Part shown: positions 1,050-44,395 of the stretch, in pieces
Numbering within the stretch: position 1 is the stretch's first letter
Layout: each line of letters begins with the position of its first letter
Source: Jeotgalibacillus malaysiensis
Lineage (GTDB): Bacteria; Bacillota; Bacilli; Bacillales; Jeotgalibacillaceae
NCBI GenBank assembly: GCA_000818095.1
Contig: CP009416.1
Coordinates: forward strand, 1,286,501 to 1,350,500
DNA: 64,000 nucleotides
Reading direction: 5' to 3'
Position numbers and translations under genes: made by a program
Notes under the pieces: model-generated
Told to the model about the DNA's origin: nothing
The model's database searches: none
The model's input: the letters and a program-made list of their open reading frames with translations, nothing else

Positions 1050-1880
1050 TTATGAAATCCAAAGGACAAGTAAAACAATTGGACCTACTGTCAGACAGTA
1101 AATCGCAAAATAAATCAGATTACCCTTCGCCATAATATTCATAAACCACTTAAGCGAGAAGTATGAAGCAATGAGTGATGCGATAAATGCCAGCAGGTAA
1201 GGCAGCCACAGGTCAGCAAGATTATCATCCTGCAGAAAATCTGAAAAGCTCAGTACCATACCGCCAAGGCTTACAGGGACAAACAGCAGGAAAGAATAGC
1301 GCAGTGCTGTTTCCTGGTGAATCCCTCTTGCCATAGCTGCGACAATTGTTGCACCGCTCCGGCTGATACCCGGTATCAGTGCGATTGCCTGAGCACCACC
1401 GATGATTAATGCATCCTTAATAGACATTCCGCTCTCGCCGCGTTTACCACGCAGGTTTCTGATCAAAAATAATGCGATACCTGTGATCATTAATGTAATC
1501 GCAACCGTCTGAGGGCCTGAAAGACGTGAAATATCATCATCAAACAGAACGCCGATTACACCGGCAGGAATTGTACCGATAATCAGATACAAAATAAAGT
1601 TGAATTCAGTTTTATCTTCAGGCTTTCTTGTTTTTATGTAGCCGAGGCCTCTGGTGATCAGACGCATAATATCTTCTCTGAAAACGAGCAAAACTGCGAT
1701 CAGTGAAGCTGAGTTCACCATTAATTCAAACGTAAAGTTGTTTCCTTCAATTTCAATACCGAGAAAATATTGTGCCAGCTGAAGATGTCCGCTGGATGAG
1801 ATTGGAATCGGTTCAGTAAATCCCTGAAACAATCCGAGAAAAGTAAATTTTAATAGTAACCAAAGCTGTTCAATTTCCAT
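1050..1880 (-). CDS. uppP: undecaprenyl-diphosphatase (UppP/BacA)
   Basis: Membrane enzyme that dephosphorylates undecaprenyl pyrophosphate, recycling the lipid carrier for peptidoglycan and teichoic acid synthesis; also gives bacitracin tolerance. Both family signatures are present: [14 protein letters not shown] near the N terminus and [10 protein letters not shown] in the middle, with several hydrophobic helices. The frame extends upstream, but GGAGG lies 6 bases before the ATG at 1880, giving 276 residues, the usual length. The upstream in-frame ATG at about 1889 would place that GGAGG inside the gene. It is transcribed away from clpB and ends at the terminator at 960-991. Confidence 0.93.
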
Positions 1881-1954
1881 AAAATCCTCCATTATTTTAG
1901 CATCACACGCTCTTAATTTAACCACCGAAAAGGGAAGATGTAAAGTGCTGGTTC

Positions 1955-1984
1955 TTTACAATTTGATGAAGAGAATGATAAAAT
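1955..1984 (+). promoter_or_regulatory. SigA-type promoter of clpB
   Basis: TTTACA, an 18-base spacer and TAAAAT; the predicted start near 1991 falls at the edge of the CtsR operator. Confidence 0.65.
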
Positions 1985-1993
1985 ACGACAAAA

Positions 1994-2010
1994 GGTCAAA
2001 GAAGGTCAAA
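1994..2010 (+). promoter_or_regulatory. CtsR heat-shock operator
   Basis: Two direct GGTCAAA heptads separated by GAA (GGTCAAAGAAGGTCAAA), an exact match to the CtsR consensus of tandem heptads with a 3-base spacer. It sits between the clpB promoter and its ribosome binding site, where bound repressor would block transcription. CtsR itself is not encoded in the window. Confidence 0.9.
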
Positions 2011-2021
2011 GGAGTGATCGG

Positions 2022-4598
2022 ATGAAATTGGATCAAATGACATACAGTGTGCAGGACGCATTTGCAGAAGGAAAAGAGCTCGCAGTGAATAGTCAGCATT
2101 CTTCTATTGATATAGAACATGTCTTCGCCGCAATGCTGAATAACGATTTTACAGGACGTCTTTTAACTGGTATCGAACTTGATGTGGCTGAGGTCAAAGC
2201 CTATATTTCAAACAGACTTTCCTCATTTCCAGTGATTCATTCTGAAGGGTATGATCCTGTTTTTGCCGGGGACGTCGGGTTGTGGCTGAAAAAATCCGAA
2301 GAGATAATGAAAGAGTATACGGATGAGTTTCTATCATTAGAACATCTGATGCTCGGTCTTATGCAACTGCCACACCTTGACACAGTAAAGTATTTGTACA
2401 CAAATAGTAAAGGGCCTGATGCGTTAAAACAGGTAATCGATGAGATCAGAGGGGGAAGAAGAGTGACAACTCAAAATCCTGAAGTAGCATATGAAGCACT
2501 ATCCAAATACGGACGCGACTTAGTGGAAGAAGTGAAAAAAGGAAAAATGGATCCTGTCATCGGGCGTGATGCAGAAATCAGACACGTTATCAGAATCCTG
2601 TCCCGTAAAACAAAAAATAACCCTGTTCTGATCGGTGAACCGGGTGTTGGTAAAACCGCTATTGTAGAAGGACTTGCACAGCGGATTGTCAGAAAGGATG
2701 TACCTGAAGGACTTAAGGATAAAATTGTCTTTGAACTTGATATGAGCGCGCTTGTAGCAGGTGCAAAGTTTCGGGGGGAATTTGAGGAAAGACTGAAAGC
2801 GGTACTTGCTGAAGTGAAAAATAGCGATGGACAGATCATCCTGTTTATTGATGAATTACACATGATTGTGGGTGCCGGGAAAACGGAAGGTTCAATGGAT
2901 GCAGGAAATATGCTGAAGCCGATGCTTGCTCGTGGCGAAATTCACTGTATTGGTGCGACTACATTAAATGAACACAGACAGTATATCGAAAAAGATCCTG
3001 CGCTTGAACGGAGATTCCAGCAGGTCATGGTGCAAGAGCCGGATGAAGATGATACAGTTTCGATTCTGAGAGGACTGAAAGAGCGTTTTGAGCTCCACCA
3101 CGGTGTCAGAATTCACGACAGTGCGATTGTTGCTGCTGCAAAACTGTCTGAGCGCTACATTACAGACCGGTTTCTGCCGGATAAAGCGATTGACCTGATT
3201 GATGAAGCCTGCGCCATGATCAGAACCGAAATTGACTCCATGCCACAGGAATTAGATGAAGCCTTCCGCCGCGTCATGCAGCTTGAAATTGAAGAAGAGG
3301 CGCTTGCAAAAGAGAAAGATCCGGCAAGTATGGAGCGTCTGAATAAACTTCGTCTGGAACTGGCTGAACTGAAGGAACAGGCAGAGGTAATGAAGGCCAA
3401 GTGGGAAGGCGAAAAGCAGTCCCTGGTTGGTATTCAGGAGAAAAAAGAAGAGCTTGATAAGCTGAGAAGAGAGCTTGAGGATGCTGAGAATAACTATGAT
3501 CTGTCAAAAGCTGCTGAGCTGAAGCACGGTCATATCCCTAAGCTTGAAAAGGAAATTAAAGCACTTGAAGCTGAAAATGAACAATCACGTGATGAAAACC
3601 GTCTGCTGAGAGAAGAAGTGTCAGAAGAAGAGATTGCTTCGATTGTTGCAAGGTGGACGGGAATCCCGGTGAACAGATTAATAGAAGAAGAACGTCAAAA
3701 ACTGCTGAGACTTGAAGATACGCTTCAGGAAAGAGTCATTGGACAGCAGGAAGCTGTCGTAGCTGTCAGTGAAGCAGTCTTAAGAGCACGTGCAGGCATT
3801 AAAGATCCTGATCGCCCAATTGGTTCATTTATATTCCTTGGACCAACAGGTGTCGGTAAAACAGAACTCGCCAAATCACTGGCTTTCACACTTTTCGATA
3901 GTGAGGATCAAATGGTCAGGATCGATATGTCTGAGTACATGGAAAAGCATGCTGTATCAAGACTGATTGGTGCACCACCAGGATATATCGGGTATGAAGA
4001 GGGTGGCCAGCTGACTGAAGCTGTCAGAAGAAAGCCTTATTCAGTCATCCTGCTGGATGAAATTGAAAAGGCGCATCCTGAAGTGTTTAATATTCTTCTG
4101 CAGATGCTTGATGAAGGTAGAATCACTGACTCTAAAGGACGTACAGTAGATTTTAAAAACACAATCATTATTATGACCTCTAATATCGGCTCAAGTCATT
4201 TGCTAGAACAATCCGGTGATATCGAGCAGGCACGGGATCTTGTCATGGAAGACCTTCACCGCCATTTCAGACCTGAGCTTTTAAACAGAATGGATGACAT
4301 TGTACTATTTAATCCTCTGACAGAAAGTCATATGAAGGGAATCGTCTATAAGATGATGGAAGAACTGCAGGAGCGGTTAACTGAGCAGCACATTACACTC
4401 GAATTGTCAGATGAAACAGTCGGCTATATTGCTAAGACTGCTTATAATCCATCTTTCGGTGCCCGACCGTTAAAGCGTTATATTCAAAAAGAAATTGAAA
4501 CGCTTATTGCAAAAGAGCTGTTAAAAGGAAATATAAAGCCACACAGTCATATTCTGATCGAGCGTGAGAATGAACAATACAAGATTATACACAAATAA
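2022..4598 (+). CDS. clpB: ATP-dependent disaggregase ClpB
   Basis: Hexameric AAA+ chaperone that pulls apart aggregated proteins with DnaK after heat stress. Order of parts: Clp N-domain (about 1-145), first AAA domain with Walker A GEPGVGKT at about 205 and Walker B LFIDELH, a long coiled-coil M-domain (about 400-520), second AAA domain with Walker A GPTGVGKT at about 607, then the C-terminal small domain with [11 protein letters not shown]. The 858-residue length and long M-domain distinguish ClpB from ClpC and ClpE. B. subtilis 168 lacks clpB, so this is a difference from the otherwise similar region. Expression should be repressed by CtsR through the site just upstream. Confidence 0.95.
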
Positions 4599-4636
4599 AA
4601 AATCATGATCCCTGTTTTCGGGGATCATGATTTTTT
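4599..4636. terminator. bidirectional terminator between clpB and yjzD
   Basis: AATCATGATCCC pairs with GGGATCATGATT across a short loop, with A-rich left and T-rich right flanks, so it can end both converging genes. It overlaps the last two bases of the yjzD stop codon. Confidence 0.9.
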
Positions 4637-5505: not shown

Positions 5506-5534
5506 AGCTAAGACTAAAATGTCTTAGCTTTTTT
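5506..5534 (+). terminator. terminator after comZ and the repeat
   Basis: AGCTAAGAC, loop TAAAAT, GTCTTAGCT, then TTTTTT. It insulates fabH from upstream transcription. Confidence 0.85.
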
Positions 5535-5558
5535 ATTACATAACAATCCCAGCATCAG

Positions 5559-5604
5559 TTGAAAACAAATTCATTATCATATATTATTAGTACCAACTCA
5601 TAAT
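5559..5604 (+). promoter_or_regulatory. fabH promoter with FapR-like operator
   Basis: TTGAAA (5559), 17-base spacer, TATTAT (5582). TTAGTACCAACTCATAA at 5587-5603 overlaps the -10 end and start site; its left half is identical to the FapR consensus TTAGTACC and the right half is degenerate (12 of 17 positions overall). The exact FapR box in front of fabI supports the reading. Confidence 0.65.
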
Positions 5605-5649
5605 ATATGATCATATCGATAGATAAAAAATCAGAAAGAAGGAAGATAT

Positions 5650-6585
5650 ATGCGTGCAGGTGCTTTAGGAGTAGGGCGTTACTTACCGGAAAGGGTCGTT
5701 ACTAATCTAGACCTTGAAAAACAAATGGACACTTCAGATGAATGGATCAGAACCCGTACAGGGATTGAAGAGCGCCGGATTGCCGGGGATGAAGTAGACA
5801 CTTCAGATATGGCATATGAAGCAGCCTTGAAGGCAATTGAACATGCAGGTACGAAAGCTGAAGACATCGACATGATCCTCGTGGCGACAGTGACCCCTGA
5901 CAGACCGTTTCCTTCTGTGGCGACAATTTTACAGGAGAGACTTGGTGCCACTAAGGCTGCAGCAATGGATCTATCAGCTGCATGTGCCGGATTTATGTAT
6001 GGCATGGTGACTGCAAAGCAATTTATTGAAAACGCAGGTTATAAGCAAGTCCTTGTAGTTGGTGTAGAAAAACTGAGTAAAATCACAAACTGGGACGACC
6101 GTAATACTGCTGTATTATTTGGAGACGGTGCTGGGGCAATGGTCTTAGGTCCGGTTGATGATGAGAAAGGGATTCTGTCATTTGAGCTCGGCTCTGATGG
6201 TTCAGGTGGTAAGCACCTTTATCAGGCGGAAGATGGCATTTATATGAATGGCCGTGAAGTATTCAAGTTTGCTGTACGACAAATGGGTGAATCAAGTATT
6301 AATGTCCTTGAAAAAGCAGGATTAACAAAAGAAGATGTCGATTATCTGATTCCGCATCAGGCAAACATCAGAATCATGGAAGCTTCAAGACAAAGACTTG
6401 AATTGCCGGTTGAAAAAATGTCTATGACTGTAAATAAATATGGCAATACGTCAGCAGCTTCAATTCCAATCTCATTAATAGAAGATCTTGAAGCAGGCAG
6501 AATTAAAGACGGAGACCTTCTTGTAATGGTTGGCTTTGGTGGCGGACTGACATGGGGCGCAATTGCAATGCGCTGGGGAAAATAA
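5650..6585 (+). CDS. fabH: beta-ketoacyl-ACP synthase III (FabH)
   Basis: Starts fatty acid elongation by condensing a (branched) acyl-CoA primer with malonyl-ACP. The Cys-His-Asn triad is visible: C112 in [11 protein letters not shown]236 in IPHQANIRI and N266 in YGNTSAAS; the glycine-rich [11 protein letters not shown] forms the usual C terminus. 311 residues, full length. The ATG follows AAAGAAGGAAG. fabF begins 31 bases after the stop, so the two form an operon as in B. subtilis fabHA-fabF. Confidence 0.95.
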
Positions 6586-6616
6586 CTTAGCACAATAGAA
6601 ACAGGAGATGACAATA

Positions 6617-7852
6617 ATGACGAAAAGACGCGTTGTAGTAACAGGTCTTGGAATGGTTTCACCACTTGGGAATGATGTGGATACGACCTGGAAGAATATT
6701 ATTGACGGTAAATCGGGAATCGGTGAACTGACAAGATTAAATCAGGAAGAATTTCCTGCAAGGGCAGTCGCTGAATTAAAAGACTTTAATATTGAAGATT
6801 ATATAGAAAGAAAAGAAGCGAGAAAAATGGATCGTTTCACCCATTATGCAATCGTCGCTGCACGTGAAGCAGTGAAAGATTCAGGCCTGGATATCTCTGC
6901 TAATGCTGAGAGAACAGGTGTATGGATCGGTAGCGGGATCGGCGGGATGGAAACGTTCGAAAAGCAGTTTGAAACGTTCCAAAAGCGTGGATACAAGCGC
7001 GTCAGCCCATTCTTCGTTCCGATGATGATCCCTGATATGGCTGCAGGACAAGTGTCGATTGACCTTGGGGCAAAAGGAATGAATTCATGTACAGTTACTG
7101 CATGTGCAAGTGGAACGAATTCAATCGGAGATGCATTCAAGGTGATTCAGCGCGGCGATGCTGATGCGATGGTGACAGGAGGATCAGAAGCGCCGATCTC
7201 TCAGATGGCAATGGCAGGGTTTGTAGCTAACACTGCGCTGACACTAAATGAGGATGTGACAAAGGCCAGCCGCCCGTTTGATAAAAACCGAGACGGCTTT
7301 GTGATGGGAGAAGGCGCAGGAATTTTAGTCCTTGAAGAGCTTGAACATGCACTGGCAAGAGGCGCTGAAATCTATGCTGAAATCACAGGCTATGGCTCAA
7401 CTGGTGATGCGTATCACATTACAGCACCGGCGCCTGGTGGAGAAGGCGGGGTTCGTGCGATGAGACAATCTCTTGAAGATGCAGGTATAAAGCCTGAAGA
7501 AGTTGGTTACATTAACGCACATGGTACAAGTACACCATACAATGATAAATATGAAACAATGGCGATCAAGGAAGTATTCGGTGACCACGCTTATAAGCTT
7601 GCAGTCAGTTCAACAAAATCAATGACAGGTCATTTGCTTGGAGCGGCCGGTGGAGTTGAAGCAATATTCACTGTACTTGCACTTAAGAACAGTATATTGC
7701 CTCCAACGATTAACCTTGAAGAAGCAGATCCTGAATGCGATCTGGACTATGTACCTAACCAGGCACGTAAACAGGAAATCCGGGCTGCAGTCAGTAATTC
7801 CCTGGGATTCGGCGGCCATAATGCAACAATTGTATTCAAATCGTACGAGTAA
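6617..7852 (+). CDS. fabF: beta-ketoacyl-ACP synthase II (FabF)
   Basis: Elongating condensing enzyme of type II fatty acid synthesis. C163 in [10 protein letters not shown] is the acyl-binding nucleophile; [11 protein letters not shown] and [12 protein letters not shown] carry the two catalytic histidines; GGHNATIVF closes the protein. The first in-frame ATG at 6608 touches the AGGAG site, so the ATG at 6617 with about 9 bases spacing is preferred, giving 411 residues, the family norm. Second gene of the FapR-controlled fabH-fabF operon. Confidence 0.95.
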
Positions 7853-7867
7853 TATCGACATACCAAG

Positions 7868-7900
7868 GCAGGGTTTGCGACAAGCAACCCTGTTTTTTTT
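7868..7900 (+). terminator. terminator of fabH-fabF
   Basis: CAGGGTTTGC, loop GACAA, GCAACCCTG, then nine T residues. Confidence 0.9.
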
Positions 7901-7908
7901 TATGAATA

Positions 7909-7926
7909 TGAATGAATATTCATGCA
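7909..7926. promoter_or_regulatory. FadR-like operator upstream of the app operon
   Basis: TGAATGAATATTCATGCA matches the B. subtilis FadR (YsiA) consensus TGAATGAMTANTCATTCA at 17 of 18 positions and is nearly palindromic. A TATAAT at 7938-7943 has no good -35, and the -35 position would fall inside this site. The only gene downstream is appD, 267 bases away. Confidence 0.55.
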
Positions 7927-8110
7927 TCCTATTGTAATATAATTCATTTTACCTATTAAAGTATGTTGAATAATAAAGTATTGTAAATATTACACCGATC
8001 ATTCGACCTTAAAAATATTTTTAAAATTTTTTTATTTCGACAAAACCCTTTAAAATCAACGCTTCTGGGATGGTGTGGGGGGGTAATTTCAAAGAATTAG
8101 AAAAAACAAG

Positions 8111-8139
8111 TTGAAATTGTAATCTATCTGTAATAGTAT
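8111..8139 (+). promoter_or_regulatory. promoter of the appDFABC operon
   Basis: TTGAAA, exactly 17 bases, TAGTAT, ending 53 bases before the appD start. The remainder of 7927-8192 is AT-rich with no other gene. Confidence 0.6.
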
Positions 8140-8192
8140 TTTATACAAATAATATAAATTGATTGAAAATAAGAAATATTAGAGGTGTTCAA

Positions 8193-9221
8193 ATGGTTAG
8201 AAAAACGGCAGGACAGAATGAGACACCACTTTTAGAGATCAAGGAGCTTCAGACAGGGTTTAAGATTGGTAAAGACTACTATAACGCTGTTGAAAAAGTA
8301 TCCTTGAAAGTCGACAGACGAAAAATTGTCGGAATAGTCGGAGAATCCGGCTGCGGTAAAAGTGTAATGTCACTGTCAGTTATGCAGCTTCTTCCTCAGG
8401 GGATCGGAAAGATCAGAGGGGGAGAAATTAAATTCGAAGGTAGAAATATTGAAAATCTTTCAGAACGCGAGATGAACAAAATCCGCGGAAAAGATATCTC
8501 AATGATTTTCCAGGAGCCGATGACTGCTCTTAATCCGGTATTTACAATCGGATATCAAATAGAAGAAGTGCTTCTCAATCACGAGAAGATTGATAAAAAA
8601 GAAGCTAGAAAGAAAAGTGTTGCACTATTAAAGAGCGTGGGAATTCCTAGACCGGAAAGTATTGTTGAAGAATATCCTCACCAGCTGTCAGGTGGTATGA
8701 GACAGCGTGTCATGATCGCAATGGCGATTGCATGTCAGCCTAAGCTGCTGATTGCAGACGAACCGACAACGGCACTTGACGTAACCGTACAGGCTCAGAT
8801 CCTTGAGCTGCTGAAGGATATTCAGGAAGTTAACGACATGGCTATTATCATGATTACGCATGACCTGGGCGTCGTCTCGGAAATCTGTGACGAGGTCATT
8901 GTTATGTACGCAGGAAAAATTGTAGAAAGAACAGATGTAATTGAACTGTTCGAAAACCCTAAACATCCATATACGCAGTTATTAATGAATGCAATTCCGA
9001 AAATGGATGAAGATGTTGAGACGCTTGCAACAATTGATGGTCTTGTACCTTCGATTCAAAAGATGCCTCAGACAGGATGCAGATTTGCTAACAGATGTCC
9101 AAAAGCAATGCCTGAGTGTACGAAGATTACACCTCTGCTGGCTGAAGATGAGCCTGGTCATGAAGTAGCCTGCATTCTATATGAGAACAGTAAACAGCCT
9201 GAAGGGGTGGGTGAAAGATGA
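8193..9221 (+). CDS. appD: oligopeptide ABC transporter ATP-binding protein AppD
   Basis: ATPase of a peptide importer. Walker A GESGCGKS, signature LSGGMRQRVMIAMA, Walker B LLIADEPTTALD, switch histidine in MITHDLG, then the C-terminal oligopeptide domain with the cysteine-rich GCRFANRCPKAMPEC. The frame can begin at a TTG at 8163, but AGAGGTG sits just before the ATG at 8193, giving 342 residues. First gene of a five-gene operon in the order D-F-A-B-C, and placed between fabF and trpS, exactly as B. subtilis app rather than opp. It overlaps appF by ATGA. Confidence 0.9.
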   Translation: MVRKTAGQNETPLLEIKELQTGFKIGKDYYNAVEKVSLKVDRRKIVGIVGESGCGKSVMSLSVMQLLPQGIGKIRGGEIKFEGRNIENLSEREMNKIRGKDISMIFQEPMTALNPVFTIGYQIEEVLLNHEKIDKKEARKKSVALLKSVGIPRPESIVEEYPHQLSGGMRQRVMIAMAIACQPKLLIADEPTTALDVTVQAQILELLKDIQEVNDMAIIMITHDLGVVSEICDEVIVMYAGKIVERTDVIELFENPKHPYTQLLMNAIPKMDEDVETLATIDGLVPSIQKMPQTGCRFANRCPKAMPECTKITPLLAEDEPGHEVACILYENSKQPEGVGER

Positions 9222-10231
9222 ATATGACAGAAACGCGCGAGACAGCCACTCAGCCGCCTAAAACTGAAAAAGAAGTACTGCTCGATATTCAAAACCTGAA
9301 AACGTACTATCCAATCAAAGGCGGGTTTCTGAAAAGAACAATCGGAAATGTTAAAGCCGTTGATGATATTAATATTCAGATTAAAAAAGGTGAAACAATG
9401 GGTCTCGTTGGAGAGTCTGGCTGCGGTAAATCTACAACCGGCCGCACAATCCTGAGACTGTTGACGCCAACATCCGGCAAAATTATTTTTGACGGAAAAG
9501 ACATTACAAAAATTAAAGGAAATGTCCTGAGAAAAGCCAGACAGGATTTCCAGATGGTGTTCCAGGATCCTTATGCATCGCTGAATCCTACACAAAGTGT
9601 TGGAGACATCGTATCAGAGCCGATCCGGAACTACCGCAAAGTCAGTAAGAAAGAATTAAAATCAGAAGTCATTGAACTGCTGAGACGCGTTGGGCTTCCA
9701 CCTGAAGCATATGACAAATATGCGCATGAATTCTCAGGCGGTCAGAGACAGCGTATCGGAATTGCAAGAGCGCTTGCACTGAAGCCAAAGCTGATCGTAG
9801 CCGATGAGCCGGTATCAGCACTTGACGTGTCTGTTCAGTCACAAGTACTGAATCTGCTGAAAGAGCTTCAGGATGAATTTGATTTAACCTACTTATTTAT
9901 TGCCCATGACCTTAGTGTTGTTAAACATATGAGTGACAGAATCGGGGTTATGTATCTTGGCAACATGGTTGAAGTAGCAGATAACAAGAGCTTATATGCT
10001 GAGCCGCTTCATCCATATACTCAGGCACTGATTTCAGCAATTCCGGAAACAGATCCTAAAAAACGTAAAGAAAGAATCGTTTTACAGGGTGACGTACCAT
10101 CTCCTGCAAATCCGCCGTCAGGCTGCCCGTTCCATACGCGCTGTCCAATGGCGAAAGCGGAGTGTGCTGAGATCAAGCCTACTTTAAAGGAGGTGAAACC
10201 TGGTCATCAAGTAGCGTGTATTCTTTACTAA
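9218..10231 (+). CDS. appF: oligopeptide ABC transporter ATP-binding protein AppF
   Basis: Second ATPase of the heterodimer that drives the AppBC channel. Walker [10 protein letters not shown], signature [14 protein letters not shown], Walker [24 protein letters not shown] switch region, and a C-terminal oligopeptide domain with [15 protein letters not shown]. 337 residues. The start overlaps the appD stop by four bases, which implies coupled translation. Confidence 0.9.
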
Positions 10232-10259
10232 GAAATTAAACCAATTTGGGGGGAACAAA

Positions 10260-12008
10260 ATGAAAAAGAAGTCACTATTGCTGATGCTTACTCTTCTTCT
10301 TGTACTATCTGCATTCCTTGCAGCATGTAGTTCAGATGACAGTTCAAGCGAACCGGCAGAATCAGACAATAACACAGCAGAAGAAGGTTCAGACGAAGGT
10401 TCTGAAGATGAAGCAACTGGCGAAGCACAACCTGGGGGAACGCTTACATATGGTGTAGACTCTCCACCGGAAGGTCTTTTCAACTGGGCATTTTACGGTA
10501 TCGTAACTGATGCTGATATCCTTGCACTTTTCGATGAGAACCTGATCGAATTTGATGAGAACCTTGCACCACAGCCAAACATCGCAAGCTGGGAAACAGA
10601 AGATAACAAAACTTTCACATTCACTTTCGAGCAGGGAGTTATGTGGCATGATGGTGTTGAACTTACAGTAAATGACTGGGTTTTCGCACTAGAAACAATT
10701 GCACATCCGGACTATGATGGTCCTCGTTATGCAAACGTACAGACAATTGAAGGTGCTCCTGCATTCCGCGATGGCGAAGCAGACAGCATTTCTGGTATTA
10801 ACGTAGTTGACGATTACACAATCGAAATCACATTTGACGAAGCACGTGTTAACAACCTTGTTAACCTTTGGACTTACCCAATGAGCCGTGCGCAATTTGA
10901 AGGTATTCCTGTAGCTGAAATGTCAGCTTCTGAGCAAGTACGTACGAAGCCGGTTGGTCTTGGACCATTCAAGGTTGACAGCATTACTCCTGGTGAAGCT
11001 GTAATCATGACGAAGTTCGAAGACTACTGGAAAGGTGAGCCAATGCTTGACGGAATCAACGTTCAGGTTATTGACAACACAACTACAGTTGGAGCACTTG
11101 GAAATGGCGATATCGACATGATGTCACTACAGCCGGTAAACGCTGCTGAAGTTGAAGAACTTGATAATGTTGAAGTAGTAACTTACCCAGGTCTTTCTTA
11201 TTATTACATTGGTTTCAAGCTTGGAACATTCAATCCTGAAACAAATGAAATTGTTGAAGACAAAGATAAGTATGCAGATGTAAACCTGCGTAAAGCTATG
11301 GCACACGCAATTGACCGTGAATCTTGGATCGATGCATTCTTCTTCGGTTACGGTTCACCTGTAAACGGTCCTGTACCATCAAACCACTGGATCGCTGCAG
11401 ACCCATCTGACCTTGCAACTTACGAATATGATCCTGAAAAAGCAAAAGAACTTCTTGCTGAAGCTGGATACGAAGATACAAACGGTGACGGATTTGTTGA
11501 AGATCCAAACGGAGAAGAATTTACTGCTAAGTTCTCTCACTACGATACTGGTAACCCGACATTTGAAACGCGTGCTCAGGCAATCGTTCAGTTCTGGGAA
11601 GCAGTAGGAATCAAGACTGAGCTTGAAATGTCAGAAGTTAACCTTTACTACGATGACATTGAAAAAGATGCTGATTCAATTGAAACATTCTTCGGTGGCT
11701 GGGGAACTGGCGCTGACCCGGATCCAACTGCACTTTGGGGATCTGACCAGCTTTGGAACTACCCACGTTACAAGAACGAAGAGTCTGACAAGCTTCTTGC
11801 TGACGCTCTAGATATCGAAGTTGTTGGAGACGACCAGCAGGCTCGTAAAGACCTTTATGTTGAATGGCAGCAAATGGTAGCTGAAGATGTACCAATGATC
11901 TTCATCGCTGAGCTTGAAGAAATCGTAGCACTTAGCGACCGCGTTCAGGGTGTTGAATATGACGTATCTGGTCAGAACAGCCCACACGAATGGTCTATCG
12001 CTCAATAA
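10260..12008 (+). CDS. appA: oligopeptide-binding lipoprotein AppA
   Basis: Family 5 extracellular solute-binding protein that captures peptides for AppBCDF. A signal peptide ends in a lipobox, LSAFLAAC, so the mature protein is lipid-anchored at C22 or close to it. A low-complexity Ser/Glu/Asp linker follows (about 23-55), then the binding domain with GGTLTYGVDSPPEG and DGVELTVNDWVFALE. 582 residues, somewhat longer than B. subtilis AppA because of the acidic linker. A strong GGGGGG ribosome binding site precedes it. Acidic surface composition is consistent with salt adaptation, which is inference. Confidence 0.9.
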   Translation: MKKKSLLLMLTLLLVLSAFLAACSSDDSSSEPAESDNNTAEEGSDEGSEDEATGEAQPGGTLTYGVDSPPEGLFNWAFYGIVTDADILALFDENLIEFDENLAPQPNIASWETEDNKTFTFTFEQGVMWHDGVELTVNDWVFALETIAHPDYDGPRYANVQTIEGAPAFRDGEADSISGINVVDDYTIEITFDEARVNNLVNLWTYPMSRAQFEGIPVAEMSASEQVRTKPVGLGPFKVDSITPGEAVIMTKFEDYWKGEPMLDGINVQVIDNTTTVGALGNGDIDMMSLQPVNAAEVEELDNVEVVTYPGLSYYYIGFKLGTFNPETNEIVEDKDKYADVNLRKAMAHAIDRESWIDAFFFGYGSPVNGPVPSNHWIAADPSDLATYEYDPEKAKELLAEAGYEDTNGDGFVEDPNGEEFTAKFSHYDTGNPTFETRAQAIVQFWEAVGIKTELEMSEVNLYYDDIEKDADSIETFFGGWGTGADPDPTALWGSDQLWNYPRYKNEESDKLLADALDIEVVGDDQQARKDLYVEWQQMVAEDVPMIFIAELEEIVALSDRVQGVEYDVSGQNSPHEWSIAQ

Positions 12009-14240: not shown

Positions 14241-15526
<1,286 letters not shown>

Positions 15527-15530
15527 TCTT

Positions 15531-15560
15531 ATTATAAGCCAGACTGTAAATAGGAATCAA
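15531..15560 (-). promoter_or_regulatory. promoter of the trpS T-box transcript
   Basis: On the minus strand TTGATT (15555-15560), 18-base spacer, TATAAT (15531-15536), placed just before the start of the T-box stem I. Confidence 0.7.
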
Positions 15561-15635
15561 TGATTTTTCAACAGTTTATGAGATGACTTTATTAGTTCCT
15601 AAGTAAAGTTATAATTACTTGCGATCATTTAGTCA

Positions 15636-15690
15636 TTGGCTGTTGGTTACAGCAGGAGTGGGACGCTTGTTGCAGTCAGCAGCTATCTTT
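15636..15690. repeat. decayed remnant of the type I dispersed repeat
   Basis: GGCTGTTGGTTACAGC followed by GGGACGCTT resembles the left end of the copy at 4938-5111 (GGCTGTTAATTGCAGC then GGGACGCTT). The rest is not recognisable. Confidence 0.4.
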
Positions 15691-15826
15691 AGCAGAGCCA
15701 CCAAAAAAATAAAAATATGGCATTTCAGAAATTATTAACAAAATAATTCAATATGACGTTTCTTTTACGATTGTTACTTGTTAGAATTATAAGGTACATA
15801 AAAATGAGTTGGTAGGAGAGGTAAAC

Positions 15827-17020
15827 GTGTCATTGAAATACATCGCAACTTCTGCAAGCGCTGCAATTTTAGCTTTTACAGTTTTTAGCACTGACGCAAA
15901 TGCAGAAACACAACATGAAGAACATCAGATCAGAGAAATGATTGAAATGCAAAAAGGATTCCCGGACTCTATGCCAAGGTTTGTTTACGACTCAGGATTA
16001 TCATTTGAATATCCCGATGCTGTAAGAGGGATATATGTAACCGGTCATTCTGCCGGTGGAGAAAGATTCGAAACGCTTTTAGACTTGATGGACAATACAG
16101 ACTTAAATGCAATGGTCGTTGACGTGAAAGAGGATCATGGTTATCTGACATATAAGCCTGAAGAAGACTCACCTTTTTCAGATATTGGACAGCCATACAT
16201 AAAAGATATGCGTGAAATGCTTGAAACTCTTGAAGAGCATGAAGTATATCCGATTGCACGCGTCGTTGTTTTCAAAGATTCTGTATTAGCGGAAAAGAGA
16301 CCGGATCTGTCATTTCAGGAAAATGGACAGGTTTGGGCTAATGGACGGGGAGAATCATTTGTAAATCCGTTTATGAAAGAAGTATGGGATTATAACGTAG
16401 ATATTGCGATTGAAGCTGCGAAAATGGGCTTTAAAGAAATTCAGTTTGACTATGTAAGATTCCCTGAAGGGTTCGAGACTCGCGATGATCTCCTCGAGTA
16501 TGGCACAGGTGATTATGCTGATGATGGCAGCGATGACACAAATGAGCGTGTAGATGCTGTAACAGACTTTGTTGAATACGCTTCAGATCAGCTTAAACCT
16601 TATGATGTGGATGTTTCAGTTGATATCTTCGGCTACTCAGCTACATTACCTGAAGCGCCGGGAATCGGTCAGAACTTTAACCGTATTTCTGAGCATGTAG
16701 ATGTGATTTCATCCATGATCTATCCAAGTCACTGGACTTCATATTTCGGGATTGAAAAGCCGGACCTTGAGCCGTATAATCTGATTGCAGAATACGCAAA
16801 AGTTGAAAATGCAAAGCTTGGAGAGCTGGAGAATCCCCCAGTTTCAAGACCATGGATTCAGGACTTTACTGCATCCTATCTTGGTGCAGGCAACTACCTG
16901 GTTTACGGACCAAATGAAGTAAAAGCACAAATTGACGCACTTTATGACAATGGTATTAATGAATTCCTACTGTGGAATGCAGGAAACACATACACAGGTG
17001 GAGTGGATTACCTGCCTTAA
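15827..17020 (+). CDS. secreted putative glycoside hydrolase (DUF4015 family)
   Basis: 397 residues from a GTG preceded by TAGGAGAGG; an in-frame TTG at 15809 lies before that site and is unlikely. A signal peptide is seen (YIATSASAAILAFTVFSTDANA, cleavage after ANA). The body matches the DUF4015 TIM-barrel family: RGIYVTGHSAGG, NAMVVDVKEDHGYLTY, IARVVVFKD, and GFKEIQFDYVRFPEG, where Asp and Glu at strand ends would be catalytic candidates. It probably acts on a cell-wall or extracellular polysaccharide; the substrate is unknown. Monocistronic. Confidence 0.8.
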   Translation: MSLKYIATSASAAILAFTVFSTDANAETQHEEHQIREMIEMQKGFPDSMPRFVYDSGLSFEYPDAVRGIYVTGHSAGGERFETLLDLMDNTDLNAMVVDVKEDHGYLTYKPEEDSPFSDIGQPYIKDMREMLETLEEHEVYPIARVVVFKDSVLAEKRPDLSFQENGQVWANGRGESFVNPFMKEVWDYNVDIAIEAAKMGFKEIQFDYVRFPEGFETRDDLLEYGTGDYADDGSDDTNERVDAVTDFVEYASDQLKPYDVDVSVDIFGYSATLPEAPGIGQNFNRISEHVDVISSMIYPSHWTSYFGIEKPDLEPYNLIAEYAKVENAKLGELENPPVSRPWIQDFTASYLGAGNYLVYGPNEVKAQIDALYDNGINEFLLWNAGNTYTGGVDYLP

Positions 17021-23016: not shown

Positions 23017-23032
23017 TGTGAAATTGATCACA
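23017..23032. promoter_or_regulatory. Fnr/Crp-type dyad TGTGA-N6-TCACA
   Basis: TGTGAAATTGATCACA matches the B. subtilis Fnr half-sites exactly with the right 6-base gap. It is upstream of the YizD-like gene on the minus strand; a weak -10 (TATTTA, 22995-23000) is at a plausible distance. Confidence 0.4.
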
Positions 23033-23093
23033 TACAAACATATACCCCTTTGTTTGACCGTGAAAAATTTCTCCCATCCCCTTTGTTCGTAAG

Positions 23094-23122
23094 AAAAGGC
23101 CCTCACATTGTGAGGGCCTTTT
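23094..23122. terminator. terminator of spxH (bidirectional)
   Basis: AAGGCCCTCACA and TGTGAGGGCCTT form a nearly perfect hairpin with A and T flanks, 12 bases after the spxH stop. Confidence 0.9.
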
Positions 23123-23134
23123 CGTTATGAATAA

Positions 23135-41978: not shown

Positions 41979-41992
41979 TCGGCGCTCTTTTA
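41966..41992. terminator. bidirectional terminator
   Basis: AAAAGAGCGC, TAATCG, GCGCTCTTTT. It overlaps the stop of the oxidoreductase gene and the 3' end of the histidine kinase gene. Confidence 0.75.
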
Positions 41993-43255
41993 TCGTTCTC
42001 TATAAACAGGAAGGAAGATCTCAAATGTCGTTCCGTGATTTTTTACACTGGATACTTTTACAGAACCGCCAATCGCTTTGATAATGCTGTAAGAGACCAT
42101 TAGCCCAAGACCTGTGCCTTTTTCTTTCGTTGAAAAGTAAGGTTCACCCAGCCTGTTGACCTCTTCATCAGACATGCCATGGCCTTGGTCGGCCACACAT
42201 AATACGTAGCCTTTGGAATCACTGGATATACTGATAGTCAGCACCCCGCCGTCTGGCATCGCTTCAATGCCATTTTTAAAAATATTGATCAGGCTTTGCT
42301 GGAACTGCTTTTTCTCAGCAAGTAGCAGAGCATTTTCAGGAAGCTGGTCGTGCAGGTGAATATCTACGTGATTCATATTCGCCAGGGGCTGAATTACATT
42401 CACAGAATGAGTCAGTTCCTCTTTAATTCTGATGATATCCTGCTGATCAGAAGCCGGCTTTGCAAATGTCAGATAGTCATTAATAATATCTGTTGCATGA
42501 TCGATTTCTTTCAGCGCAGTATATAAATAATAGTCCTGGCGTTCATCCTGTCCGCGGTCCTGAAGCGCCATCTGAATGAAGCCTCTGCTCACTGTGAGCG
42601 GGTTTCTTACTTCATGTGAGATACTTGCTGCTAAGTGGCTGACAACAGAAAGTTTTTCAGCTCTGATTAAATCATTTAAAATCAGGAAGTTTGTTCTGAT
42701 GATTTCCCATAAAATCATTGCGACAATCAGGCCGACAATATTAATAATCGTAAATGTCACCCACACATCAAGCGGCATTAATACATTAAAAATTAGATAA
42801 GATAATGTCAGGTTACACAGGACGAGAAAAGAAACAAGTAAAGTGCCGATCATGATTTTACCTGGGACTTTTGAGCGTTGAAACTGCTTCATGAATGCGA
42901 GGTATAAAATCCAGATCAGCAATAACGTAATGGTTGATACCAGTACGCCGTCTCCACCCAGTGCAGCACGGCTGATCAATGCGACCGCCGTAAGGAAGAT
43001 TCCCATCCGGTAACCGCCATATAATGTACCGAGTACAATCGGAACCGCACGCAGGTCCCAAAGAAAGCCTTCATTAATGGTAAAAGGGAAGGAGAGGCAT
43101 AACAGAATAGATATGGCAGGGAAAATCGCTGCAAATTTACTTTCTTTCTTTTGCAGACGATTACGGTATGAATAAAAATAAACAATCTGAATAAATAATA
43201 AAGGCAGGATCATTAATAAAAAATTCACCAGCAGATCTTTCGTTAATACGTCCAT
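41990..43255 (-). CDS. 5TM sensor histidine kinase (KinB-like)
   Basis: 421 residues. N-terminal 5TM-LYT-type membrane region of five to six helices (about 1-190) with AVPIVLGTLYGGYRMGIFLTA; then the H-box SHLAASISHEVRNPLTVSRGF, N-box NIFKNGIEAMPDGG, and G-boxes VADQGHGMSDEE and STKEKGTGLGLMVSYSIIKA. No response regulator is next to it, which is the rule for phosphorelay kinases of spore formers such as KinB. A role in Spo0F phosphorylation is inference. Confidence 0.88.
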   Translation of the reverse strand: MDVLTKDLLVNFLLMILPLLFIQIVYFYSYRNRLQKKESKFAAIFPAISILLCLSFPFTINEGFLWDLRAVPIVLGTLYGGYRMGIFLTAVALISRAALGGDGVLVSTITLLLIWILYLAFMKQFQRSKVPGKIMIGTLLVSFLVLCNLTLSYLIFNVLMPLDVWVTFTIINIVGLIVAMILWEIIRTNFLILNDLIRAEKLSVVSHLAASISHEVRNPLTVSRGFIQMALQDRGQDERQDYYLYTALKEIDHATDIINDYLTFAKPASDQQDIIRIKEELTHSVNVIQPLANMNHVDIHLHDQLPENALLLAEKKQFQQSLINIFKNGIEAMPDGGVLTISISSDSKGYVLCVADQGHGMSDEEVNRLGEPYFSTKEKGTGLGLMVSYSIIKAIGGSVKVSSVKNHGTTFEIFLPVYRER

Positions 43256-43313: not shown

Positions 43314-43342
43314 TTGAAAAATATCAGCGGTTACGCTATGAT
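43314..43342 (+). promoter_or_regulatory. promoter of the candidate structured RNA
   Basis: TTGAAA, exactly 17 bases, TATGAT; the predicted start is near 43349. Confidence 0.75.
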
Positions 43343-43348
43343 TCTAAT

Positions 43349-43564
43349 TCAGGCTGCGTTGTTCGTATGTTCTAAGTAAGTTTTAACCTTTGATCTGTTA
43401 ACGGGAGTTTTAAATAAAAGTCGGATTGTCATGCCTCATCAGCGTATGAGGACGCGCATGAACACTTTTGCGAACACCCACTTTGAGGAGTGGTGGTTTA
43501 AAAACTTTCTTAATAAAACTACGGCAAAGGCGGCTGTAAAACCGGGGATCTCCCCGGTTTTTTT
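43349..43564 (+). ncRNA. candidate structured small RNA, possibly 6S-like
   Basis: About 216 nt with its own promoter and terminator and no convincing frame. The ends pair: GCTGC..TTG at 43353-43361 with CAA..GCGGC at 43525-43534. After an internal bubble, AAGTAAGTTTTAACC (43374-43388) pairs with GGTTTAAAAACTTTCTT (43495-43511). Inside are hairpins (CTCAT/ATGAG within TCATGC/GCATGA; CCACT/AGTGG). A rod with a closing stem, central bubble and terminal arm of this size is the architecture of 6S RNA. I cannot confirm the family by sequence. Confidence 0.6.
43538..43564 (+). terminator. terminator of the candidate RNA
   Basis: ACCGGGGA, TC, TCCCCGGT, then seven T. It may also stop kynA transcripts, weakly. 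Confidence 0.85.
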
Positions 43565-43576
43565 AATGCCTTCTCC

Positions 43577-44395
43577 CTAAAGCTCCGTTCTCAAATCCCA
43601 AAGCTCCGGAAAGAAATAAGTATCGAGCACGCTTTTCAAGTAGTTAACACCTGCTGAGCCGCCGGTTCCTTTTTTGAACCCGATAATCCGTTCTACCGTC
43701 TTCATATGACGGAATCGCCACTGCTGGTGCCAGTCCTCAAGGTCAACAAGCTTTTCAGCAAGCTGATAAAGTGTCCAGTGGGTTGCGGAGTCTTTATAGA
43801 CTTCACTCCAGGCAGCTTTTACGTCAGCGTTTTTCTTATAAGGCATAGAGAAGTCCCTTTGAAGAATGTCCTCCGGTATATGAAAACCTGCCTCTGATAG
43901 CTTATCAATTGCGATATCATATAGACCCTTTTCCTGATACGCTTTTTCAAGCACCTGATAAATATCCTGATCCTGTTCATATATTTTTAGAATGTGCGGG
44001 ATTTTGTAGCCAAGTGAAAATTCAATCAGTCTGTACTGATACGACTGGAATCCTGAAGCTTTTCCAAGAGAATCACGGAATTCAATATATTCAGATGGAG
44101 TCATAGTAGCAAGAACATCCCAGGCTTTAATAATCTGCTCCTGAATTTTGGATACACGCGCAAGCTGTTTAAAGGCTGGTTCAAACTGATTACTAAGGAG
44201 TGATTCGCAGGCTGCCTGTATTTCGTGGATAATCAGCTTCATCCACAGTTCGCTTACCTGATGAATCACAATAAAAAGCATTTCATCATGATGTCCGGAC
44301 AGTCTGTTTTGTGCTGCGAGAAGCTGATCAAGAGAAAGGTAATCCGCATAGGTCATATCATTTTTAAAATCAGTATAGATTTGTTGATCACTCAT
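43577..44395 (-). CDS. kynA: tryptophan 2,3-dioxygenase
   Basis: Heme enzyme opening the indole ring of tryptophan to N-formylkynurenine. 272 residues: [33 protein letters not shown] (substrate pocket), and [20 protein letters not shown] with the proximal heme histidine. kynB and kynU, the usual partners, are not adjacent. Solitary gene; the rest of the pathway would have to be elsewhere. Confidence 0.94.

Follow-up and report, generated by a model that had tools for sequence, protein, structure and literature searches.

The stretch at about 43349-43564 on the forward strand of the window is, with near certainty, the gene for a 6S-2 RNA of Jeotgalibacillus malaysiensis: a counterpart of BsrB, about 193 nt long with a terminator tail in addition, which would act in the usual way of 6S RNAs. 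(The window is the whole 64,000-nucleotide stretch of DNA that was analyzed, and coordinates refer to it unless another locus is named.) 6S RNA is well known from bacteria; it mimics an opened promoter and holds RNA polymerase. The gene is real but ordinary, and no new biology is required to explain it. That it is the second paralogue, 6S-2, goes beyond what the original prediction, made from the letters only, could see. We found no paper on 6S RNA in Jeotgalibacillus.

The 6S match and its features

An Rfam scan of the 64-kb window returned four matches above the cut-off, and the one at 43348-43540 (+) is to the 6S RNA family, RF00013. It scores 78 bits (E = 1.1e-13), above the curated cut-off of 46.4 bits, and it spans model positions 1-187 of 187, so the match is full length. 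The original prediction had guessed at 6S RNA and had named a covariance search as the way to check; that search bears the guess out, and the start it had proposed (43349) is one base away from the start of the Rfam match. The features of the locus are as follows.

41990-43255, - strand: divergent neighbor, 5TMR-LYT sensor histidine kinase, 421 amino acids
43314-43342, + strand: sigma-A-type promoter TTGAAA-17-TATGAT, 10 of 12 consensus matches, place and spacing kept in 12 of 12 congeners
43348-43540, + strand: 6S RNA (RF00013), 6S-2 type, 78 bits, clade taken from the tree
about 43349-43564, + strand: putative transcript
43349-43366, + strand: closing (terminal) stem, 5' strand, projected from Rfam
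43380-43388, + strand: P2-like helix beside the central bubble, 5' strand GUUUUAACC, which makes up most of the predicted template for the product RNA
43389-43402, + strand: 5' side of the central bubble (probable; modeled on B. subtilis 6S-1)
43403-43479, + strand: apical arm, from GGGAG to CACCC, with an inner hairpin at 43434-43451 (Rfam projection)
43478-43493, + strand: alternative hairpin on the 3' side of the bubble, CCACUU-UGAG-GAGUGG (fold and RNAalifold)
43495-43505, + strand: P2-like helix beside the central bubble, 3' strand GGUUUAAAAAC
43521-43538, + strand: closing (terminal) stem, 3' strand, projected from Rfam
43538-43564, + strand: intrinsic terminator AAAACCGGGG-AUCU-CCCCGGUUUU plus T run, with the stem at 43538-43561
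43577-44395, - strand: convergent neighbor, tryptophan 2,3-dioxygenase (kynA), 272 amino acids

We rejected a coding gene. There is no credible frame, as had been stated from the sequence: no open reading frame of 60 amino acids or more overlaps the stretch, and one spacing inside the RNA is 67, 72, or 63 bases among the congeners, in steps of 5 and 4 bases. Presence in phages was also rejected, with no match in the phage collection.

Two other Rfam matches in the window are to the RsaE/RoxS small RNA, at 23018-23123 (+) with 105 bits, and to a T-box leader, at 15306-15514 (-) with 134.5 bits.

Two 6S genes and the class of the window copy

J. malaysiensis has two 6S matches: one of 109 bits at C1:2110880-2111068 and the window copy at 78 bits. 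(The genome is described as having 3,516,439 and 603,070 bases, the smaller part being a megaplasmid [PMC5027565].) The two genes are about 780 kb apart, and each has promoter-like hexamers of its own; the Bacillus cereus group is likewise described as having two 6S genes per genome, but there they are adjacent and cotranscribed (PMC7726162). All 12 genomes of the genus, which include J. terrae, J. proteolyticus, and Jeotgalibacillus sp. S-D1, contain exactly two 6S genes, or one copy only in two of them (G007 and G011) if stricter filters are used. More broadly, we searched 101 genomes, 12 of the genus and 89 from elsewhere in the order; 99 of them contain one or more 6S matches, and two (G033 and G067) have none.

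The 109-bit copy lies between aspS and tcdA, and we take tcdA to be the same gene as yrvM. The place of 6S-1 in B. subtilis is given as aspS-yrvM (PMC11077062), and the copy at aspS/tcdA is the counterpart of B. subtilis 6S-1. The window copy lies between the 5TMR histidine kinase and kynA. Across the 12 congeners, kynA is within 1.5 kb of the second copy in 11 and the 5TMR kinase in 7; one genome (G002) has neither gene within that distance. We see the kinase/kynA place as a feature particular to Jeotgalibacillus.

We placed the copies in a tree of 131 tips, comprising three named Bacillus copies and 128 others, which are all 24 copies of the genus and 104 from the rest of the order (a subset of all matches). 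The tree was midpoint-rooted and rests on an alignment of sequence rather than of structure. It separates 59 tips, which form a 6S-2 clade (support 0.998), from the remaining 72, whose node has a support of 0.469 after the midpoint rooting. The window copy falls within the 6S-2 clade, in a group of 32 that has the bubble motif (support 0.983) and that includes B. halotolerans, B. pumilus, and B. swezeyi. Some of the inner nodes are weak: the node that joins all 12 congeners has a support of just 0.059, because the copy from G002 does not group with the other 11. The neighborhoods divide in the same place, with aspS or tcdA within about 1.5 kb in 71 of the 72 clade-1 loci (the exception is L015) versus none of the 56 clade-2 loci. 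These counts use the position in the tree and not the motif label; L109 is 6S-1-like by a loose motif, yet it lies in the 6S-2 clade. The window copy thus sits with the 6S-2 copy of the B. subtilis group rather than with the 6S-1 genes at aspS/tcdA.

B. subtilis 168 is outside the compared set, and the likeness to BsrB is read through the copy from B. halotolerans, which we take to be a member of the B. subtilis group. That copy scores 77.3 bits, similar to the window copy, lies in the same clade, and has the same bubble GUUUUAACCUUU, the same GGGAG, and the same CACCCACUUUGAGGAGUGGUGGUUU. With B. subtilis 6S-1 (BsrA), the window copy has in common the family and the overall rod structure, but the bubble and the template sequence differ.

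The chromosomal place of 6S-2 in the B. subtilis group is not shared. In B. halotolerans, the gene is flanked by a Flavodoxin_2 (azoreductase-like) gene and recQ, which is presumably the yocJ-bsrB-yocI place of B. subtilis, as opposed to the kinase and kynA here. (No paper turned up in a literature search that paired bsrB with yocI.) By eye, the place varies more widely: recQ is also the neighbor in B. pumilus, and there are other neighbors in B. swezeyi, Metabacillus indicus, and Peribacillus frigoritolerans. Given these neighbors, we do not treat a shared place as defining 6S-2.

The distinct place in Jeotgalibacillus is what might be expected if the window copy were a recent, lineage-specific duplicate of the organism's own 6S-1 gene instead of an old 6S-2 paralogue. 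However, the window copy shares just 82 of 176 aligned letters with the organism's own 6S-1 copy but 130 of 187 with that of B. halotolerans, and the tree puts the window copy within the 6S-2 clade with high support, both for the motif group of 32 and for the whole clade. On the tree and the identities, we rejected a recent duplication, which we consider very improbable.

We also considered whether the 6S-2 gene of Jeotgalibacillus might be regulated together with the adjoining membrane sensor kinase, via the 58 bases that they share between the start of the kinase and the -35 box of 6S-2. We doubt this strongly, as the kinase is beside 6S-2 in only 7 of the 12 congeners. We kept the idea because a homologous 5TMR kinase adjoins a 6S-1-type gene in L015, which is from a genome of another family: there, the 6S-1-type gene (1501-1677 of that locus) is away from aspS/tcdA and just upstream of a 5TMR-LYT histidine kinase (1767-3152) that is 37% identical to the kinase in the window. 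If the idea were true, then a signal system of Jeotgalibacillus would set how much polymerase is held back.

The searches turned up 6S genes in unusual settings as well. A circular plasmid of Niallia sp. XMNu-256 (unnamed2, NZ_CP137638.1, 22,218 bases; L250) encodes a 6S-2-type RNA at 4429-4621 (59.9 bits), which was missed by the faster scan and found in a further search. The same plasmid carries a full 16S-23S-5S operon (5513-10346) and 24 tRNA genes (10411-10584 and 14527-16601), and it also encodes ParA and a replication initiator. This combination of genes on one plasmid is more curious than the 6S-2 gene of the window. rRNA operons on plasmids are known, and PMC10645730 also reports them for small contigs in Bacillus sp. 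OV322 and Ureibacillus xyleni; the main text of that paper nowhere uses the words "6S RNA". A plasmid of Cytobacillus spongiae (NZ_CP089998.1, 689,878 bases; L251) has a 6S RNA gene at 4004-4192 (76.8 bits). Other loci contain repeated 6S-2-type genes: three in tandem in Ureibacillus sinduriensis (L239, 28-746), three within 8 kb in Filibacter tadaridae (L230, 1-7861), and pairs whose starts are 248-342 bases apart in seven loci (L156, L165, L190, L206, L208, L214, and L234). All of these repeated genes are above the Rfam cut-off (three of them are cut or short at the end of the locus) except for one copy in L208, which is missing from the Rfam matches and sits at the end of its locus.

Conservation of the promoter, terminator, and structure

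The promoter that the original prediction had picked out is present at 43314-43342. The match alone is not above chance: there is one promoter-like site in 1.3 kb, versus a mean of 3.1 in shuffled sequences. It is convincing because, in all 12 congeners, TTG and TAT(G/T)AT keep the identical place and are 17 bases plus three apart. (In one congener, L048, the scoring script favored another, equally weak pair of hexamers.) The strong terminator that had been described is plain in the sequence, as a GC-rich stem at 43538-43561 followed by a T run; a simple terminator scan did not list this stem. By our own script, a hairpin with a T run is found by rule in 9 of the 12 congeners, and the other 3 fail that rule. 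With the promoter in every congener and the terminator in most of them, the RNA may have its own transcription unit of about 200 nt.

The predicted fold of the RNA, terminator included, has an energy of -63.5 kcal/mol, versus a mean of -52.1 kcal/mol for shuffled sequences (z = -2.71; 1 of 200 shuffles was as good). The helix that Rfam sets next to the central bubble lies within the pairing of AAGTAAGTTTTAACC with GGTTTAAAAACTTTCTT that had been proposed at the outset.

Compensatory changes, which had been named as a check, are found in relatives: 18 of 49 pairs changed on both sides across 43 sequences. For this count, we projected the Rfam structure onto the window copy and then scored it on 43 rows, which were taken from 144 distinct sequences with the bubble pattern. 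Twenty-eight of the rows were first found with the Rfam model and 15 were hand-picked for variety among the pattern matches; all 43 were kept for holding the pattern. The count left out the 27 of 56 clade-2 loci without the bubble pattern, which is present in 29 of the 128 loci. (A pattern scan of genome contigs found it in at least 120 stretches.)

Across the 43 rows, 85.2% of cells are paired, versus 41-50% in controls with the pairing partners slid, and none of 500 shuffles reaches any of five structure measures. Because kinship alone can beat shuffles without any structure, the slid control and the spread of the paired changes over the closing stem and the apical arm are the better argument. 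In the closing stem (helix 1), 6 of 17 pairs changed on both sides, and in the apical arm (helices 3-5), 12 of 23 did. Helix 2, beside the bubble, is paired in 98.6% of cells but shows no paired changes in these rows, which were selected for the motif. It hardly varies, partly through that selection, so it speaks neither for nor against the structure; similarly, the conservation of this helix and of GGGAG/CACCCAC is by selection, as all 43 rows were kept for the bubble pattern. All 12 congeners also carry the pattern; they came from the search with the Rfam model and were not picked for it. Overall, the arrangement expected of a 6S RNA, with a closing stem, a central bubble, and an apical arm, is kept by paired changes, except that the helix adjacent to the bubble is uninformative.

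The projected structure does not fit perfectly: 6 of the 49 Rfam pairs are nonstandard in the window copy, and two of the 49 form in none of the 43 rows. An RNAalifold consensus from the same rows, in which 10 of 32 pairs changed on both sides, prefers the hairpin at 43478-43493 to the helix beside the bubble. This hairpin is nearly invariant.

The window copy's covariance score is below that of the 6S-1 copy (78 versus 109 bits), as might be seen in a decaying 6S-like pseudogene or remnant. However, all 12 congeners retain the promoter, the flanks of the bubble, and most of the closing stem while differing at other positions, and relatives show joint changes at paired positions, which makes decay even less probable than a recent duplication. 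Finally, we rejected a new structured RNA unrelated to 6S, whose probability is negligible and in whose favor there is nothing beyond the caution of the original prediction: the Rfam match is full length, only RF00013 passes its cut-off at 43348-43540, and a permissive search of 371 bases (E up to 1) found, besides RF00013, only AbsR28, whose 18 bits fall short of its cut-off of 50.

Probable mode of action and significance

By analogy with the rest of the family, the 6S-2 RNA of J. malaysiensis would be expressed, bind RNA polymerase, and serve as a template for product RNAs. It would fold into a rod whose central bubble resembles an opened promoter, and it would bind the sigma-A RNA polymerase holoenzyme, so that part of the enzyme would be kept off DNA promoters. 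The polymerase would copy short product RNAs from the bubble as template, and this synthesis would open the neighboring helix and free the enzyme. Such a mechanism has been described (PMC8876501, PMC12005410, PMC11077062): resembling an open promoter, 6S RNA takes up the sigma-A holoenzyme until the synthesis of product RNA releases it. In B. subtilis, both 6S RNAs are reported to have been found with the holoenzyme, 6S-2 at a lower enrichment, and the peak of 6S-2 is put in mid-exponential phase (PMC11077062).

The product RNA of the window copy is predicted, by analogy, to be 5'-AAAGGUUAAAAC, or that sequence preceded by an extra C, on the opposite strand; its synthesis would start at about 43391-43392 (uncertain by one base). 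This predicted RNA has GG at positions 4/5 or 5/6, as described for product RNAs of other bacteria (PMC8414754). For the organism's own 6S-1 copy, the predicted product is GUUCGGUCAAAACUG, which by eye is identical in the first 14 of 15 letters to GUUCGGUCAAAACUA, the product reported for B. subtilis 6S-1 (PMC12005410).

The function of 6S-2 was described as unclear when PMC7726162 was written, and a later report of earlier sporulation is cited in PMC9147052. Both of the 6S paralogues known from B. subtilis are now placed in a halotolerant genus, and we provide an alignment of 6S-2 that is supported by covariation; of the two paralogues, 6S-2 has the less clear role. The practical value of the finding lies in annotation and in a check of what can be recognized by reading a sequence alone.
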